The notes under the pieces were generated by a model, which was not told the origin of the DNA, did not search any database, and saw nothing but the letters and a program-made list of their open reading frames with translations. Made by a program: the position numbers and the translations under genes. This document shows, in pieces, positions 19,670 to 27,211 of a DNA stretch of 64,000 bases; within the stretch, counting starts at the first letter, position 1, and each line of letters begins with the position of its first letter. The DNA is from Cytophagaceae bacterium (GTDB lineage Bacteria; Bacteroidota; Bacteroidia; Cytophagales; JAIYAX01), in assembly GCA_027488815.1 (NCBI GenBank), contig JAIYAX010000023.1, positions 1 through 64,000 of the forward strand, given 5' to 3'.

Positions 19670-19975
19670 TTACAAGTCCACACTCAATTTTAAATGTCCT
19701 CCAAGGCCTTCCTGAATGATTCTCATTAATGTTGAAAGCCTGATGTCGCTGGCATCATTTTCTATCCGTGAAATATAGGTTTTTGTTGTCCCACATTTCT
19801 CCGCCAGCTCAGCTTGGGTTAACCCTCGTTCTTTGCGTAGCTCTTGAAGCATAACTCCAAGCTTGAAGGCTTCAAATTCCTGCTCATATTTCTCTCTTAA
19901 AGCAGTTCCACGTTTTCCGTATTGGCTGTCCAAATGATCAGCGAATGAAGTCAAATTAGTTGTTTTCTTTTTCAT
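19670..19975 (-). CDS. HigA-type antitoxin (XRE helix-turn-helix)
   Basis: 101 residues from ATG 19975. A helix-turn-helix fills about residues 45-95: 'LGVMLQELRKERGLTQAELA' and 'CGTTKTYISRIENDASDIRL'. A frame extends upstream to 20053, but those codons are the out-of-frame tail of the toxin gene, so the later ATG is preferred. HigA-like antitoxins neutralise the HigB mRNA interferase and repress their own operon. It follows the toxin gene, in the higBA order, and in the un-shifted frame the toxin would overlap this start by 20 bp. The antitoxin itself looks intact. Confidence 0.88.
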   Translation of the reverse strand: MKKKTTNLTSFADHLDSQYGKRGTALREKYEQEFEAFKLGVMLQELRKERGLTQAELAEKCGTTKTYISRIENDASDIRLSTLMRIIQEGLGGHLKLSVDL

Positions 19976-20310
19976 CGAAGTATTGTTTTCTAAGTTTTTC
20001 TGCCTGTTCAATTTCCGCTTTAGGGGTTTTTTGAGATTTCTTTTGAAAGCCATTGAGCAAAACGATCAGCTTCCCATTTGTCGAAAAAGCTGAAAACCCT
20101 GAAAATGTCTGACCCAACCTCAACTCGTATCTCATAAATGCCTGACGAATTTGTCATGTGGCTGAAAAATTTCTTTGGGACTCTTTCTGTAGTAGCAATT
20201 AACTGTAAGGTCCAGTTGAACTTTTTCTGAACCTCCGGTTTCAAGGAATTGAAAAAACTTAGGTAATAGTCCTTGTAATAACAGATTTCCCTTAGATGCT
20301 TTTCGGCCAT
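19956..20310 (-). pseudogene. HigB/RelE-like toxin gene with a one-base frameshift
   Basis: The frame from ATG 20310 encodes 'YYKDYYLSFFNSLKPEVQKK' through 'IFRVFSFFDK' like HigB/Gp49-family toxins. It then switches to a foreign 17-residue tail (WEADRFAQWL and on) and stops at 20020. The correct family C-terminus, KLIVLLNGFQKKSQKTPKAE to KQYFDEKENN, is encoded intact in another frame and ends at 19956. Removing one base (A on the plus strand, at 20076) restores FFDKGKLIVLLNGFQKK. The lost C-terminal helix carries part of the expected fold, so the product is probably inactive. A sequencing error is the main alternative. Confidence 0.85.
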
Positions 20311-20445: not shown

Positions 20446-20660
20446 TGGCATCACGGCAAGCGATGCTCTTTTTCTCCCCCGCTGCAAAGGAAGGCGACTG
20501 GGGTTTATGGAATGGTGTTCTTGTCATGTGAGGACACCTGCCAAGGGGAAGGAATAGCGGGACAGTGGGTATTCATTGTTCGAGCTAGCATGAGCTCGCA
20601 CCAGTTGAGGAGTAGGGGGTAAGAATGGTTCGTGGGACACGAACCACGGCGGGGGTGAGG
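20446..20660. repeat. Structured intergenic repeat, copy 1
   Basis: It occupies most of the 373-bp gap 20311-20683, which has no gene. It contains CATGTG-AGGA-CACCTG (20525-20540), the stem CGAGCT (20581-20586)/AGCTCG (20593-20598), the shared block CACCAGTTGAGGAGTAGGGG, and the 8-bp hairpin GGTTCGTG-GGA-CACGAACC (20627-20645). It lies 23 bp past the stop of the minus-strand gene at 20684. Related copies lie at 21773, 23148, 23929 and 24772. Confidence 0.8.
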
Positions 20661-20683
20661 GAAATGGCAGTTAGCGGTAGCAT

Positions 20684-21703
20684 TTATACTTCGTGTCGAC
20701 TGTACGTCTCTAACAGTTTTAGAAATACCTCCGGATCTATTATTTTTTTATTTATTTTGTCAAAATATTCAGCAGAAAAAATTTCGAATTGTCTTGAATT
20801 ATACGGTGATTTTTTCGCCGCAATTATAAAATTGTAATCTGATAAATATCTCACCCTTAATTTAGCTCCAAACGATTCCACAACTTTACCATTAATAATT
20901 GTTGCTCCGTCATCATAATGTTCTCGACTTATTGGTTTTTTACCTAAAAGAGCATACTCTTCATTACAAAACCCACGTTCCTCTATACTTTCCTGTATTT
21001 CTTTTGCTGTATAATTGTTTAATCCAATTTGCTTTTCTCCAACACATTCAACATATATAAAGCATTTATGGTATGATTCACTTAGATAGACCGCTATTCT
21101 ATTTATCTCAAGCTCTTTAGTTTCAAGTAAAATTTTTGTACTTGAGAGCTGTTTAAATTCCTTTATAAACATTGAACTATGACCTCGAAACCACCATAAA
21201 GGATCAGATGGAAATTCGGAATCAATGTTTTGTTTGAAATTAATTGGTTCTTTAAAAACAATTTTTAGCCTTTCTACCGCAGTTTTTGAATTGTACCATT
21301 TTAATCCTCTTTGACCAGGAAACGCTCCAGTTAATCTGTTAAAATAAAACACAGTTGAAGGTTCGTAAATTGTTGGTAGTTCTTGAGGAACGTCTTTGGT
21401 TAGATATTTTTTCCTTAATATACCTAATAATAATTTAATAAAAACAAACAATGCCCAATAAATTATAAACAATCCAAACCATAAAAGCATATTATTTAAT
21501 TCAGTTCTGGAATTAAAGTATTTTATAATTGGTTGTGCAGCCGATTTAATTGATATCTTTTCATACAAACTTTTTACGATGACAAAAAATCCAGTTCCAA
21601 TTCCAATAAAAACTGCAGAAATAATTTTACTCCATACTGGGTCGGGCCAGTACTTTTGGATAAAAATGTTTTTATAGTTATTTATTTTTTTTTTAAAATC
21701 CAT
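20684..21703 (-). CDS. Two-helix membrane protein with a conserved-looking soluble domain, unknown function
   Basis: 339 residues from ATG 21703. A longer frame to 21784 would use TTG and runs into repeat copy 2, so it is not used. Membrane helices lie at about residues 16-36 (IISAVFIGIGTGFFVIV) and 60-82 (LLWFGLFIIYWALFVFIKLL). A cytoplasmic domain follows from about residue 140 to the end, with 'DPLWWFRGHSSMFIKEF', 'KCFIYVECVGEKQIG', 'EEYALLGKKPISREHYDDGA' and 'RVRYLSDYNFIIAAKKSPYN'. I do not recognise this domain. The gene is strongly A+T-rich compared with the core genes, in keeping with the accessory setting. Confidence 0.75.
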   Translation of the reverse strand: MDFKKKINNYKNIFIQKYWPDPVWSKIISAVFIGIGTGFFVIVKSLYEKISIKSAAQPIIKYFNSRTELNNMLLWFGLFIIYWALFVFIKLLLGILRKKYLTKDVPQELPTIYEPSTVFYFNRLTGAFPGQRGLKWYNSKTAVERLKIVFKEPINFKQNIDSEFPSDPLWWFRGHSSMFIKEFKQLSSTKILLETKELEINRIAVYLSESYHKCFIYVECVGEKQIGLNNYTAKEIQESIEERGFCNEEYALLGKKPISREHYDDGATIINGKVVESFGAKLRVRYLSDYNFIIAAKKSPYNSRQFEIFSAEYFDKINKKIIDPEVFLKLLETYSRHEV

Positions 21704-21772
21704 ACATTTCAAAATATTACCGCAAACTCGTTTATAGGTCTGATACCCACCAGACTTTCCTAAGTCCCTTAC

Positions 21773-22010
21773 AAAAATGACCAAATTCTATAAATCACCA
21801 AACCTTTACTCTATTATTTCTTCAGAAAAGACCTTTAAGGCCTAAAGCAACGTTCTCTATCGCCCCCTAGCATGTGAAGACGATTGGGGTTTAGCAATGG
21901 GATTCTTATCAGGTGAGGACACCTGCCAAGGGGGAGGGTTCGCACCAGTTGGGGAGTAGGGGGTAAAAATGGCTTGTGGGACACGAAGCATGGCACGGGG
22001 ACGTTTGGCG
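21773..22010. repeat. Structured intergenic repeat, copy 2
   Basis: It fills much of the 415-bp gap 21704-22118. The first 160 bp are closely similar to copy 4 (from 'CAAAAATGACCAA' through 'CCTAAAGCAACGTTCTC' to the hairpin). It includes the perfect CAGGTG-AGGA-CACCTG hairpin (21910-21925) and CACCAGTTGGGGAGTAGGGG. The rest of the gap (22011-22118) shows no gene or recognisable signal. Confidence 0.8.
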
Positions 22011-22118
22011 GCCTTGCGTAGTTGGGCTTTCACAGCATCGACTGTCTTAACCCACAAATATTTTTTAGTGATACAAAACTTTCTTTACCTCTTTCCGACC
22101 AATTATGCAAGAACGTTG

Positions 22119-22640
22119 TTACTTGCTAGGCTTCTTTTTGTATGAGAATTCATGTCTATTTATCCATTCTGTTTCTCCTGTAAATTGTACGTCTTTTCTA
22201 TTTTTGAATGTTGTCGGACTAAAAGTGTAAGTGTGTCTAAAAGTTGCAGGTCTATTGTCATTCCCGTCTTCCCCAAATTCTTCTGTAATGATCTCAATAT
22301 CACCGTTAGGTAGCGTACGCCTAGATTTTACCAATTCCTTGTCAATATATTTTCCGTCGGCTGAAATAGATATTGTATCAATTGAATTGGCACTTGTTTC
22401 ATTTGGGTAAATGTTCGAGAAAACAAATTTGTTTGTCGTACTCATTCTTTTAATTTCGACGTTTGCTGGCATACTATAAGGTTTTCCTGACGAGTAGTCA
22501 AGATAGGTCAAATAACCTTCCCATGTTCCTGATAACTCATAAAAGTCTTTTTGAATAGTTTTAAAACTAATTTGGGCACTACAAATTGTGCTAAACAAAA
22601 GTGTCATGCTTAAGGTGACACAAAGTCTTATTTTTTTCAT
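22119..22640 (-). CDS. Small secreted protein, unknown function
   Basis: 173 residues. A signal peptide (about 1-22, MKKIRLCVTLSMTLLFSTICS, cut near SAQ) is followed by a single beta-rich domain starting with 'FYELSGTWEGYLTYLDYSSG' and ending 'TGETEWINRHEFSYKKKPSK'. The 'LSGTWEGYLTY' opening resembles lipocalin-like or DUF1579-like secreted barrels that begin with a G-x-W motif, but assignment is weak. It is A+T-rich and stands alone on the minus strand between repeat copies 2 and 3. Confidence 0.7.
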   Translation of the reverse strand: MKKIRLCVTLSMTLLFSTICSAQISFKTIQKDFYELSGTWEGYLTYLDYSSGKPYSMPANVEIKRMSTTNKFVFSNIYPNETSANSIDTISISADGKYIDKELVKSRRTLPNGDIEIITEEFGEDGNDNRPATFRHTYTFSPTTFKNRKDVQFTGETEWINRHEFSYKKKPSK

Positions 22641-23147
22641 TTTTTAAGTATTTATACTTTAGTTGTCGGTTTGTCGCAAAGCCTTTCAGGTAACTACACT
22701 ATTGCCGCACTATTGTGCAAAAATGATCTGAAGCTGCAACCGTATATTGATTTGGTTGCGAAGCTTTAACCCAAAATAGTAGCAACATTGAAAACATAAA
22801 TCAAACATATCCTTTTCCCAAATACAAATCAAGTAGTCTGCTTATTCAGTTATTGGGAATTTATCCTCACAAGGGTCAATTTTCCGGGAAACACCGCCCT
22901 TCCTTAGCTTCAGGTATCATGGTACGTCTGTAAGCTCTTCTGCCTATATGAATTTTCAGCCAAATCCTTACCGCCCTGTTAGCCTTGGAGCTCTTTTGGT
23001 TCCCATGTATCGTGATTCTCGCCCAGGTGACTGTCGGTTAGTGCTCCTGTTTGCTCTATCCTCCGGCGCAGTTCAAGTTCACCAAACGCATGGCCGCCAA
23101 CGATCTGAACCTTACAACAAAACTTTGGCTGATTTCAACACTAACCG
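22641..23147. other. Gene-free stretch upstream of the secreted protein
   Basis: About 500 bp without a convincing gene on either strand. A 76-codon open frame at 22948-23178 runs into repeat copy 3 and has no start context or recognisable family, so it is not called. The segment at about 22880-23140 has higher G+C than the flanking genes and could be the decayed end of an inserted element, but I cannot identify it. Confidence 0.5.
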
Positions 23148-23375
23148 GGCTTCGGAAGAGGACGATTGGGTTGGATAGGATTCTTGTAAGGTGAAGACAC
23201 CTGCCAAGGGGGAGGGTTCGCACCAGTTGGGGAGTAGGGGGTAAAAATGGCTTGTGGGACACGAACCAAGGCAGGGGAGGATCAGATAGTCGTTTTTTCT
23301 TCGATGTGGTGGCATCGCTGCAAGCGTCATTCTCAGTCGCCCTCGTTACAAGCGAGGACGATTGGGGATTAATAG
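23148..23375. repeat. Structured intergenic repeat, copy 3 (with a second partial start)
   Basis: It contains AGGTG-AAGA-CACCT (23189-23202), CACCAGTTGGGGAGTAGGGG and a GTGGGACAC hairpin. From about 23308 it restarts with GGCATCGCTGCAAGCG, matching the left end of copy 1, and repeats GAGGACGATTGGGG. It therefore looks like a full unit joined to a partial one. It ends within 10 bp of the stop codon at 23382. Confidence 0.78.
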
Positions 23376-23381
23376 CACTAA

Positions 23382-23765
23382 TTATTTTTCAAAGTAGTAG
23401 GTATAAACTGTACCGTTAACATCACCGCCCCCTGAGAAATCTTTAAGTTGGTACCCCATGTTTTGAATCTCAGCAATTTTTCTTGTTACAATTACCATGT
23501 TGTCGATGGTATTGTCAGTACTCCTAGTATACCTTTTTAATTCAACACTTTCAGTAATACCATCAGGCTTGGAAACAATCATTGCACATGGAATATTTAC
23601 CATCCCATGTGCCTCAATTGTTCTTAAAATTAAAAAGTCCTTTTTCTCAACTAGTGTTTTGAACGCTGTCAATGCGATAATTGATGTTAGAACTCCACTA
23701 ACAATTAGGATTTTGCTTTTTCTTATCATTTTGTTTCGGTCTATTTTGTTTTTTGTTGTCGTCAT
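23382..23765 (-). CDS. Small single-helix membrane protein, unknown function
   Basis: 127 residues (ATG 23765; a second in-frame ATG at 23729 would remove 12 residues). One membrane helix or signal anchor (about 17-38, ILIVSGVLTSIIALTAF) precedes an exposed domain of about 85 residues with 'DFLILRTIEAHGMVNIPCAM', 'NMVIVTRKIAEIQNMGYQLK' and a final 'GTVYTYYFEK'. No family is recognised. No promoter of the TAnnTTTG type is seen upstream. It lies alone on the minus strand between repeat copies 3 and 4. Confidence 0.65.
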   Translation of the reverse strand: MTTTKNKIDRNKMIRKSKILIVSGVLTSIIALTAFKTLVEKKDFLILRTIEAHGMVNIPCAMIVSKPDGITESVELKRYTRSTDNTIDNMVIVTRKIAEIQNMGYQLKDFSGGGDVNGTVYTYYFEK

Positions 23766-23928
23766 GGAAATTAGTCTATCAATACTTGATGCACTAACTA
23801 TTGGTCTTTCACTATCGTTGGTGAGTGTGTTTTGTTGCCCTTAGCACGTTTATTGGTCAGGCCCTTTCGGCTTAAACAACCAAACGAAAGTGATACGCAT
23901 GATAAACATTAAGATTTACTAAATCTCA

Positions 23929-24170
23929 ACAAAAATGACCAATTTTTATCAATCACCAAACCTTAACTCCATTATTTCTTAAGAAAAGACCTATAAGGCC
24001 TAAAGCAACGTTCTCAATCGCCCCCAGCATGTGAGGACGATTGGGGTTTAGTAATGGTATTCTTGTCAGGTAAGGACACCTGCTATGGAGAGAAAAGCAA
24101 TCGAGTTTAGGTACGAGCCACAGGCTCGCACCAGCAGGGTCGCACCAGCAGGGGAGGATGTGCTGTTGGT
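23929..24170. repeat. Structured intergenic repeat, copy 4
   Basis: It lies in the 415-bp gap 23766-24180, which has no gene. Its left 160 bp match copy 2. It has CAGGTA-AGGA-CACCTG (24067-24082) and the stem CGAGCC (24114-24119)/GGCTCG (24123-24128), where copy 1 has CGAGCT/AGCTCG: a compensatory T-A to C-G change. The block TCGCACCAGCAGGG occurs twice in tandem (about 24126-24152). It ends just before the stop codon at 24181. Confidence 0.8.
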
Positions 24171-24180
24171 GACTGAGCTT

Positions 24181-24757
24181 CTATATTGTCTTTGCTTTAT
24201 CAATAGTCTTTTTTACTTTGTCAATGTCAGAAATTAGCTTTATGATTTCAGGGTCAATCCAAGTTAGTAAGTTGGTTATAGATTTGTGGACTTCTCGTGT
24301 AGCTGTAAAGTCGATGTTATTTCCGTTAAAGCAAATGGGCTCATTATGTTTAATTCTGTTTCTGAAACGTCTTACTTTATCCATTTCATCATTTACTTCT
24401 TTCCTTCCGTGTCCAACAGGTAATGACTGAAATATTTGTATGGGTTTGCTTATAGTTTCAAACGGCTCATCGGATTGAGCAAGTGATTTAAAAAACCTAT
24501 CTAACTCTGTTTGAACAGCATATTTGGTAAAAGACATAATAAAAAGCAGCAGATGCTTAAAGTCTAGTTTTCGGTCTCGACTAAAATCTTTTGGATTAGA
24601 CCTGTTTTTGTCCACAAACCGCTCATTATCAATGGTTTTAGTGGTGGAGAAAAAAAGCCCTTCTACATAAAGGGCTTCCTTCTTTTCAATATTCGAATTT
24701 ACTAATTTTTCGCAACTATTTATCTTATTTACAAAATAATTTACTCTTTTTATCTTA
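24181..24757 (-). pseudogene. Chimera: IS4-type transposase N-terminus joined to an Abi-like C-terminus, no proper start
   Basis: One open frame runs from about 24757 to the stop at 24181 without an ATG; the first usual alternative start is GTG 24615, giving 144 residues. The upstream part and residues 1-57 ('VDKNRSNPKDFSRDRKLDFK', 'KYAVQTELDRFFKSL') match the N-terminal region of IS4-type transposases of Bacteroidota. From about residue 68 ('GHGRKEVNDEMDKVRRFRNR', then IKHNEPICF) it changes to the C-terminal pattern of Abi-like/abortive-infection proteins (RNRIxHxEPI). The join looks like a deletion fusion. Whether it is translated is doubtful. It lies directly next to the AIPR gene. Confidence 0.7.
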
Positions 24758-24771
24758 ACTTAACGACATTG

Positions 24772-24791
24772 GGCTCGCACTAGCAGGGGAG
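24772..24791. repeat. Structured intergenic repeat, copy 5 (fragment)
   Basis: GGCTCGCACTAGCAGGGGA is the same block as in copy 4 (GGCTCGCACCAGCAGGG), located directly before the stop codon of the AIPR gene (24792). Only this short piece remains. Confidence 0.6.
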
Positions 24792-26669
24792 TTATGCTTC
24801 GTCAGTTGTATCTTCTTCCTCTTCATCGTTCTTCATTATGTCCACCACTTCTTCATCTTCTTTTAATTCAATAGCTTCAATAGTTTCAGGATTGATTTCA
24901 ATTTCTTCAAGTTTTCCCTTTACTCTTTCGTATTGGCTTGAAGATGTTAGGAAGCTGATAAATTTATCAAAGGATTTTTCATCCTCATTGAGATTAAATT
25001 CCTTTTCAAGATACTTGTTAATGAACTTAAATGTCTTTAGAATTATTTCTGTATCACTTGCATTATATAGTTTCTGAATATGAAGATTTATATTGATTTT
25101 GTCTCCGAATGTAGATTTACAGTATTTGGTAAACATTATTTTAAAGAGGGAAAGCACATGATATAAATTACTTGAAAAAGTATCTTCGAGGTCAAAAGAG
25201 GTTCGTTTGATAATTATGTCTAATAAATAAAAGGAGGTGACAAAATCTTCAAATTTGGAGTCATTATTAAATATTTTCTCATAAAGTCCATCTTTATGGT
25301 CTTTATGTGAAACAAAAAGCAAATCCTTTCTAGTATCTTTTCTTTGTCTGTAATTATTTAAAACACCTACAGGGTCTTGAAGTTGGTACGCTAAATAACA
25401 ATTAGCGAAAACAATATTCGGTATTCGTTTTACACCTTTGGGTATAGTTCTAAATTCTCCTCTTCGTTTTTCATACCAATAATTGGTCGAATAAAACTCA
25501 TTTTGCAATCTAACTTGAATGTCATCATTCGCCCTAAAATCTCTTTCGTTAACAGGGTTCTGTGAGTTAGTATATCTTGTAACCTTTAAGTCAAAGTCCC
25601 GTCCGCCTGATTTGAGTAATCGCAAAGTTATTAATGCTTCACTATCAATAATAGAGCGTTTTGTTGGGTTTGCCTCGCTATATGCTTTATAAATTGAATA
25701 AACAGTTTGTGCACCATTGATAATTTGAAGCCCAGTTAGTTCAATCGTGGTGGCTTCATCTCTTACCTCGGGGATAAGATATGTTATAGCAGTTAGTCCG
25801 TTGTTATAATACCAAAAATATGCAGGATTATCAGTTGCTGTTTGTTCAATTTCTTTATTAAAGTCAGACGTTATCAATGGGTTTCTGACATTCCTAAAAA
25901 ACAATGAAAAGCCATATTTTTCAAATAGTTCAAAAATAGTTTTAGGTTTAATAAGGAACACATAAGCTTCAAATGGCTTCTCAACTCTGATATAATTTCC
26001 TGAAGCAGGATTTGTCCTTTGAACCTCAATGTTTATTTTGCTTTCTTCTGGATTGTAATAATTCTCAAGTGGATTTATTGGGTCTATTTTCTTAAACCTT
26101 CTTTCAATGTAGTCAACCTTAAGCTTGTTAATGTCATAAAAATCAAATCTCGTTCTCTTGTGATTTTCGATAAAACTTTTGACGTTGTCGTCTGCTTTTG
26201 GATTGTTATTTGAAAGCGTAAGATAAATGAACTTTACATCACCATTTGCTTTCTGATGTGCTTGTAGTTCATCAATTTTTGTTTTTAGTTTAGTGCTGAT
26301 TTTTTCTTTTTTACCCCTTAAAATGGTATCGAAATCGTTAAGAGCTTGTAAGATGTCCTTTTTCTCAACTGCCTTGTTACAATTTGTTTCGATATTCCAT
26401 TTGGATTGAACGATATAGAAAACTCGTTGTCCTTGATTGTCAAAATTGTCAAAAACTATATCACAAGAACTGTCTTCGTCTCCGTCCGTTATGTAACTGG
26501 AGTAATCCGTCTTTTTGCCATAAAATTCCAAGAACCAAATCAATAAAGCATATGCCTTTTGATTGTTCACGGCACTTTTATTCTTTTTTATGTATTCGTC
26601 ATCTTTATACTTACTTATTATCTCGGTAAGTTCGGTGTCAATTATTTTATAAAAATCTTCTGTCAGCAT
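24792..26669 (-). CDS. AIPR-family protein, candidate phage-defence nuclease
   Basis: 625 residues. The N-terminal part (about 35-175) holds a possible PD-(D/E)XK nuclease core: the acidic region 'DGDEDSSCDIVFDN' followed by 'RVFYIVQSKWNIE', where Q-S-K replaces the E-x-K pair as in some restriction-type enzymes. The middle (about 240-440) is an AIPR (abortive infection phage resistance) domain with 'NPAYFWYYNNGLTAI', 'LQIINGAQTVYSIYKA' and 'VTRYTNSQNPVNERDFRAND'. The C-terminus is acidic (DEEEEDTTDEA). AIPR proteins are linked to phage abortive infection; the cleaved target is not known here. It is A+T-rich, with its own promoter box at 26687-26694. Confidence 0.88.
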   Translation of the reverse strand: MLTEDFYKIIDTELTEIISKYKDDEYIKKNKSAVNNQKAYALLIWFLEFYGKKTDYSSYITDGDEDSSCDIVFDNFDNQGQRVFYIVQSKWNIETNCNKAVEKKDILQALNDFDTILRGKKEKISTKLKTKIDELQAHQKANGDVKFIYLTLSNNNPKADDNVKSFIENHKRTRFDFYDINKLKVDYIERRFKKIDPINPLENYYNPEESKINIEVQRTNPASGNYIRVEKPFEAYVFLIKPKTIFELFEKYGFSLFFRNVRNPLITSDFNKEIEQTATDNPAYFWYYNNGLTAITYLIPEVRDEATTIELTGLQIINGAQTVYSIYKAYSEANPTKRSIIDSEALITLRLLKSGGRDFDLKVTRYTNSQNPVNERDFRANDDIQVRLQNEFYSTNYWYEKRRGEFRTIPKGVKRIPNIVFANCYLAYQLQDPVGVLNNYRQRKDTRKDLLFVSHKDHKDGLYEKIFNNDSKFEDFVTSFYLLDIIIKRTSFDLEDTFSSNLYHVLSLFKIMFTKYCKSTFGDKININLHIQKLYNASDTEIILKTFKFINKYLEKEFNLNEDEKSFDKFISFLTSSSQYERVKGKLEEIEINPETIEAIELKEDEEVVDIMKNDEEEEDTTDEA

Positions 26670-26730: not shown

Positions 26731-26765
26731 CCCATCACTGTCACCCCTCAGGGGACACTGATGGG
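26731..26765. other. Long near-perfect hairpin between the AIPR gene and rnpB
   Basis: CCCATCA and TGATGGG form the outer stem. After one mismatch, TGTC pairs with GACA, and CCCC pairs with GGGG around TCA with one bulged A. No T run follows on either strand. It marks the junction between the A+T-rich island and rnpB. Confidence 0.6.
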
Positions 26766-26817
26766 AGTTGTTGATTTCTATCGAATGGCCTTTTCACAGT
26801 TACAAAAAAACAAAAAA

Positions 26818-27211
26818 TGCAAACCTGTAAGCCGGATTCTGTATCCCGACAAGTCGGGCTCTTACCATTTATCTAGCCCGGCCGTCACCGGCAGGGTCAA
26901 GCGATCTACCCGTGAAAAACCATGCAGGAACACAGTAAGGACGAGCAGCCCCCGGGTGCCCATTTGCACCCTTTTCACCTATTTGATCTTTCAGCCCGCA
27001 AGGTTTACCTGCATCTTGCATTACTGCAAAACCGGTGGGCTCTTACTCCACCCTTTCACCCTTACCCCGGCAAGCCGTGGCGGTTTCCTTTCTGTTGCAC
27101 TTTCTGTATCCCCGTTTTCAGGAGACCCTTCCCGTTAGGAAGTGCGGCGCTCTGTGCTGTCCGGACTTTCCTCTCCTGCCAACAGGCAGCAGCGGTAAGA
27201 CGGTTTGCATT
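26818..27211 (-). ncRNA. rnpB: RNase P RNA (class A)
   Basis: The catalytic RNA that trims the 5' leader of tRNA precursors. The conserved core GAGGAAAGTCCGGACA is read on the minus strand at 27159-27174, and ACAGAATCCGGCTTACAG near the 3' end at 26825-26842. The ends pair as helix P1 (ATGCAAACC at the 5' side, GGTTTGCAT at the 3' side). The length of about 394 nt fits type A. A T-rich run follows the 3' end (about 26800-26818). A -7 box lies just upstream (27218-27225), giving a start that agrees with the 5' end of P1. Confidence 0.95.

Follow-up and report, generated by a model that had tools for sequence, protein, structure and literature searches.

The structured repeats that follow each of five A+T-rich genes in a 64,000-nucleotide stretch of DNA from a Cytophagaceae bacterium (the window) are very probably composite REP clusters, hybrid and BIME-like in make-up, that RAYTs deposited behind genes in one orientation. 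We base the REP identity on imperfect hairpins with a fixed mismatch, on covariation in the stem of hairpin family B, and on RAYT genes that are flanked by inverted copies of hairpins B, C and A. Several REP families that face one way at the 3' ends of A+T-rich, presumably acquired genes reverse the usual REP pattern, and the genome offers a concrete system in which to ask whether RAYTs help to insert, insulate or tame foreign genes.

Layout of the array

The array extends from a HigB/HigA-like toxin-antitoxin pair (higBA, 19670-20310; Gp49 and HTH_3 families), which forms its left border, to rnpB (26812-27211). Between them lie five minus-strand genes in a row: a 366-aa open reading frame (20684-21784) without a Pfam or PADLOC match and with a G+C content of 0.30, a 173-aa frame (22119-22640) without a Pfam family and with one weak PADLOC match (E 0.003), a 127-aa frame (23382-23765) without a family, a 144-aa frame (24181-24615) with a weak PADLOC match to PD-T4-5 (E 2.5e-7), and the gene for a 625-aa AIPR protein (PF10592; 24792-26669), which is of the abortive-infection type and has a PADLOC AbiU match. 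The G+C content of the five genes ranges from 0.30 to 0.34, whereas the genes of the genome average 0.442 (sd 0.033), and the blocks 3' of each of them are more G+C-rich than the genes. No homology was detectable among the five array proteins when they were compared. The original prediction of five unrelated, A+T-rich minus-strand genes, with stops at 20684, 22119, 23382, 24181 and 24792, was therefore borne out, as was that of a repeat copy on the 3' side of each; the distances from copies 1-5 to the stop likewise agree, at about 23, more than 100, about 10, about 10 and 0-1 nt.

Composite structure of the repeats

The copies had been taken for one repeat; they are instead mosaics of several hairpin families, namely A, B, C and a fourth. 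On the plus strand, hairpin A reads CTTGTCAGGTG-AGGA-CACCTGCCAAG (also written CTTGTCAGGTG-AGGA-CACCTGCCAAGG), hairpin B follows the pattern GGYRCRAGY-NNN-RCTYGCRCC-AGC (GGTACGAGC-NNN-GCTCGCACC-AGCAGGGG), and hairpin C reads TCTC..TCGCCCTCGTT..AACGAGGGCGATTGGGG. Copy 1 (20446-20660, plus strand like all the others), behind the 366-aa gene, consists of a C hairpin (20467-20507), an A hairpin (20517-20549), the right half of B (20593-20612) and the fourth hairpin, GGTTCGTG-GGA-CACGAACC (20626-20646). Copy 2 (21771-22015), over 100 nt past the stop at 22119, begins with a 97-bp module shared with other copies (21771-21867), followed by a degenerate C hairpin (21854-21893), an A hairpin (21902-21934), a right half of B (21937-21956) and the fourth hairpin (about 21970-21992). 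About 10 nt from the stop at 23382 lies copy 3 (23158-23371), with an A hairpin (23180-23212), a right half of B (23215-23234), the fourth hairpin (23248-23268) and a C hairpin (23331-23371). Copy 4 (23929-24156), near the stop at 24181, again contains the shared module (23929-24025), together with a C hairpin (24012-24050), an A hairpin (24059-24091), a complete B hairpin (24106-24138) and an extra right half of B (24137-24156). Copy 5 (24772-24791) is only the 20-nt right half of B and abuts the stop codon at 24792.

Where complete, the family order in these copies is C-A-B, and B is often represented by its right half alone. Stretches of 97-103 bp are common to copies 2-4 at 92-93% identity, and the genome yielded no further match to them, which suggests later local duplication of, or recombination between, copies.

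Hairpin families in the genome

The repeat occurs far beyond chance, because the 16-nt core of A, with up to two mismatches, has 26 matches in the genome versus 1 for a backwards control; the 18-letter pattern of B has 30 matches versus 2. Covariance models, each built from 15-18 copies and giving rough E-values, returned at least 23 A, 28 B and 36 C sites, counts that are lower bounds with up to 150 candidates scored per genome. On 300 kb of sampled stretches, the B and C models returned no site.

The stems of A and of B each contain one mismatch at a fixed position. Two versions of B, GGCACAAGTC..GACTTGCGCC and GGTACGAGCT..AGCTCGCACC, differ by paired changes at four stem pairs. In the B stem, 96% of the cells are paired and 32 are compensatory, with both sides changed; the covariation score of 0.477, versus 0.268 in shuffles, was reached by 0 of 500 shuffles. 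The elements share with REP/RAYT systems that they are imperfect palindromes of 20-40 nt, present in many copies between genes. The canonical GT(A/G)G foot was looked for and is absent from A, B and C, the foot of B being GCTG and those of A and C being C-rich. The structures that flank RAYTs of subclass 2.6 (mostly Bacteroidetes) and of class 3 likewise lack GT(A/G)G (PMC6006769). The closest atypical Bacteroidetes types are those of subclass 2.6 (RAYT group 5), a likeness that consists in the absent foot and is not a subclass assignment.

RAYT genes flanked by the hairpins

A hallmark of REP systems is the RAYT gene with inverted REPs on both sides (PMC2817692). The genome contains five Y1 transposase genes. 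The RAYT on contig C6 is a pseudogene broken by a TAG codon, and B hairpins flank it in inverted orientation; that on C17 is flanked by hairpin C, and that on C10 by hairpins of yet another family, CTTCGGGATT-TGT-AATCCCGAAG, with a composite of A, B and C adjoining. On the NCBIfam model NF047646 (REP-associated tyrosine transposase, REP_Tyr_transpos; cut-off 80 bits), the C10 and C17 proteins score 114.6 and 107 bits, respectively. The enzymes that can be tied to the repeats are RAYTs (Y1 HUH transposases); an integron or tyrosine-recombinase system finds no support.

Further such loci were found in relatives. Inverted B hairpins enclose RAYTs in four genomes (G064, G159, G132 and G268), and these B-flanked RAYTs score 87-99 bits on NF047646, above the cut-off. 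Inverted A hairpins enclose RAYTs at two loci of G064 (contigs C46 and C28) and at none in our genome; the A-flanked RAYTs belong to another family of the order and, at 68-72 bits, fall under the cut-off. The broken C6 RAYT clusters with the B-flanked RAYT of G064 (91/87), and a search of our genome for an intact cognate RAYT of A or B found none.

At C17:28209-28414, the start of the RAYT gene and the C hairpin upstream of it are tandemly duplicated. Two further Y1 transposases (C10:64000-76000 and C18:12000-24000) score above the cut-off of an IS200-type model and lie amid other hairpin families, CCCACGGTTTAAACCGTGGG and GTGCCTTTAGGCAC / CCTAACGGG.

Distribution and arrangement in the order

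Among 292 genomes of the order, ours included, B is present in 46 and A in 7. Outside our genome, A was found only in genomes of the taxonomic family f20; at the sites observed, the G+C content is close to 30% in several of these genomes. In the relatives, A and B form mainly inverted pairs, with about 30-45 nt between the two starts, that is, REPINs. Our genome showed no close inverted pair of either A or B; its hairpins form head-to-tail chains, typically C-A-B, and A, B and C share one orientation in nearly all clusters.

The elements resemble REP/REPIN systems with their RAYTs (TnpA-REP; REPtrons) in being imperfect multi-copy intergenic hairpins, in the RAYT genes that inverted copies flank, in their location on the 3' side of genes, and in the inverted pairs seen in relatives. 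They differ in the missing GT(A/G)G foot, in a low copy number of about 20-40 per family, in that A and B are unpaired in our genome, and in their strong link to A+T-rich genes. Clusters that mix several REP types are known as hybrid BIMEs from Stenotrophomonas (PMC2817692). The mosaics described here share this feature; however, BIMEs alternate in orientation, whereas the members of our clusters face one way, oriented to the upstream gene.

The flanks of the array were also compared across genomes. The search for synteny via CorA gave best matches of about 40% identity, none of them from within the genus or family. For the AIPR protein, the nearest homologues are in G065 and G092 (58-60% identity); the 3' flanks there are unrelated to that of the array, and no B or C hairpin was found in them. 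These homologous genes are likewise A+T-rich, and directly 3' of them lies a different structured sequence of about 130 nt (GCCTAACATTACATTTGCG...GGTGTAACGCTATTAAATCCCGCCCTCCGCAAACATT in G065), perhaps another 3' repeat family.

Orientation and link to A+T-rich genes

Outside overlapping open reading frames, the gene at the foot end of an A or B hairpin faces the element with its 3' end in 43 of 47 cases and with its 5' end in 4. Clusters between co-directional genes show the same preference (17 fits versus 3 for A/B, 9 versus 2 for C, together 26 of 31; p ~2e-4), and the 3'-side placement predicted from the array holds genome-wide in this form. Read along the coding strand of the gene, the foot end adjoins the stop codon, and for about a dozen elements the distance to a stop is 15 nt or less. 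Since the orientation of the hairpins flips along with the gene inside one contig, it follows transcription and not the replication arm. In known REPs, uni- and convergent sites predominate, the 3' side is preferred, and the stop codon is often provided by a GTAG foot (PMC3733652); placement on the 3' side and nearness to stops are general REP features.

The composition of the adjoining genes is not. With genes called by a simple ORF script, the genome sampled as stretches and the sites not fully independent, genes facing a foot end within 200 nt have a mean G+C content of 0.363, and 69% of them (64% without the array) lie below 0.37 versus 2.9% of 280 sampled genes. Even outside the array, the repeat is therefore tied to accessory-looking genes (Fisher p ~2e-13) rather than scattered over core-gene junctions, the outcome that would have spoken against the original prediction. 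A paired comparison over 25 clusters shows that the gene across the repeat from the foot end is less A+T-rich (Wilcoxon p ~5e-4). That REPs track A+T-rich genes, whose acquisition we infer from G+C alone, is unusual, since hairpins of this kind are as a rule a mark of old DNA. The link is not accounted for by what REPs ordinarily do, because Pseudomonas REPs avoid acquired regions ("REP deserts", PMC3390384) and because the B REPINs of G159 lie behind genes of normal composition, with no A+T-rich link. The REPINs of G159 also led us to reject a composition preference of family B as the sole cause.

Proposed origin and alternative readings

Oriented insertion or retention behind tolerant genes most likely explains the link to foreign genes. 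RAYTs (Y1 HUH) would process REPs, short imperfect palindromes, in the form of single-stranded hairpins. Three or more REP families, each linked with its own RAYT lineage, would have been laid down successively in the same orientation, presumably by RAYT-driven insertion behind genes that involved several RAYTs over time. Insertions may have been kept mainly where they were harmless, behind weakly integrated accessory genes, and an RNA effect of a hairpin near the stop possibly aided their retention. Decay, which would have left A without a RAYT found in the genome and B with a broken one, and local duplication would have followed. As to what ties the repeats to A+T-rich genes, neutral retention, an RNA effect, co-transfer and REP-mediated gene movement all remain candidate causes.

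A role of the hairpins in RNA is possible, if clearly less probable than not: they may have been kept at the mRNA 3' end, for translation control, mRNA protection or termination, and selected behind foreign genes. Such a role can coexist with the REP identity of the elements. It agrees with their preferred orientation to the stop codon and with the covariant stem of family B, although covariation is expected of single-stranded DNA hairpins too. The dozen or so elements within 15 nt of a stop fall in the range in which E. coli REPs are reported to lower translation, according to work cited in PMC12306157. On the other hand, the great majority of the genome's genes are without A, B or C elements, and a scan for intrinsic terminators made no call at any A, B or C hairpin (9 terminators in total versus 6.0 +/- 2.9 expected, near chance); terminator-like T-runs are absent from the copies. 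The proposal that the repeat processes 3' ends accordingly finds no support where it concerns intrinsic termination.

Co-transfer, in which A+T-rich donors of the order would have supplied the A+T-rich genes with REPs already on their 3' side, appears unlikely. The restriction of family A elsewhere to f20 genomes, several of which are close to 30% G+C where sites were observed, would fit this reading, as would the closest relative of the C6 RAYT, which is an f20 RAYT. However, the copies on the donor side are inverted REPINs and not A-B-C chains, and the 3' flanks of the AIPR homologues (58-60% identity) are unrelated and show neither B nor C.

Gene capture driven by RAYTs is more doubtful still. 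Here, same-orientation REPs flanking a gene would act as left and right end hairpins like those of IS200/IS605, and, in a step that we consider just as improbable, the gene with its REP would move as a single-stranded circle and build integron-like gene-REP arrays without an integrase. The likeness to IS200/IS605 lies in the Y1 HUH transposase and in end hairpins that are recognised as single strands; it ends where capture of a gene between the hairpins of our array is only putative. Genes bracketed by same-orientation REPs occur in arrays on contigs C5, C10, C16 and C29, and the gene-to-REP orientation bias is strong. The strongest point in favour is that the A+T-rich gene lies nearly always on the foot-end side and in one orientation (Wilcoxon p ~5e-4). 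Against this stands, above all, that the distance between stop and junction is not fixed (0 to over 100 nt), and that no empty site or circle was observed; moreover, the nearest AIPR relatives carry no B or C repeat. Gene mobilisation by RAYTs is not known, and a literature search for RAYT-linked gene cassettes found nothing. If it were true, arrays of acquired, defence-type genes would be built without a site-specific recombinase.

An array of cassettes handled by a tyrosine recombinase, such as a chromosomal integron, can practically be dismissed: the layout of single unrelated genes, all facing one way, each followed by a structured element and bracketed by like elements, does resemble integron cassettes, as originally noted, but the repeats are 26-41-nt hairpins of several families that match RAYT-flanking elements, the best match to an integron integrase model reached 84 bits versus a cut-off of 265, with no integrase above it, and no paired GTTRRRY/RYYYAAC attC cores were found at gene borders.

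Further features of the window

Between array genes, positions 22839-23170 form a G+C-richer stretch with a plus-strand open frame of 110 codons and without a Pfam match, possibly a relic. An Rfam scan of the window returned rnpB and a tRNA only. Just beyond the 3' end of rnpB lies a long imperfect hairpin, CCCATCACTGTCACCCCTCAGGGGACACTGATGGG (26733-26768), which is perhaps a terminator or another REP.
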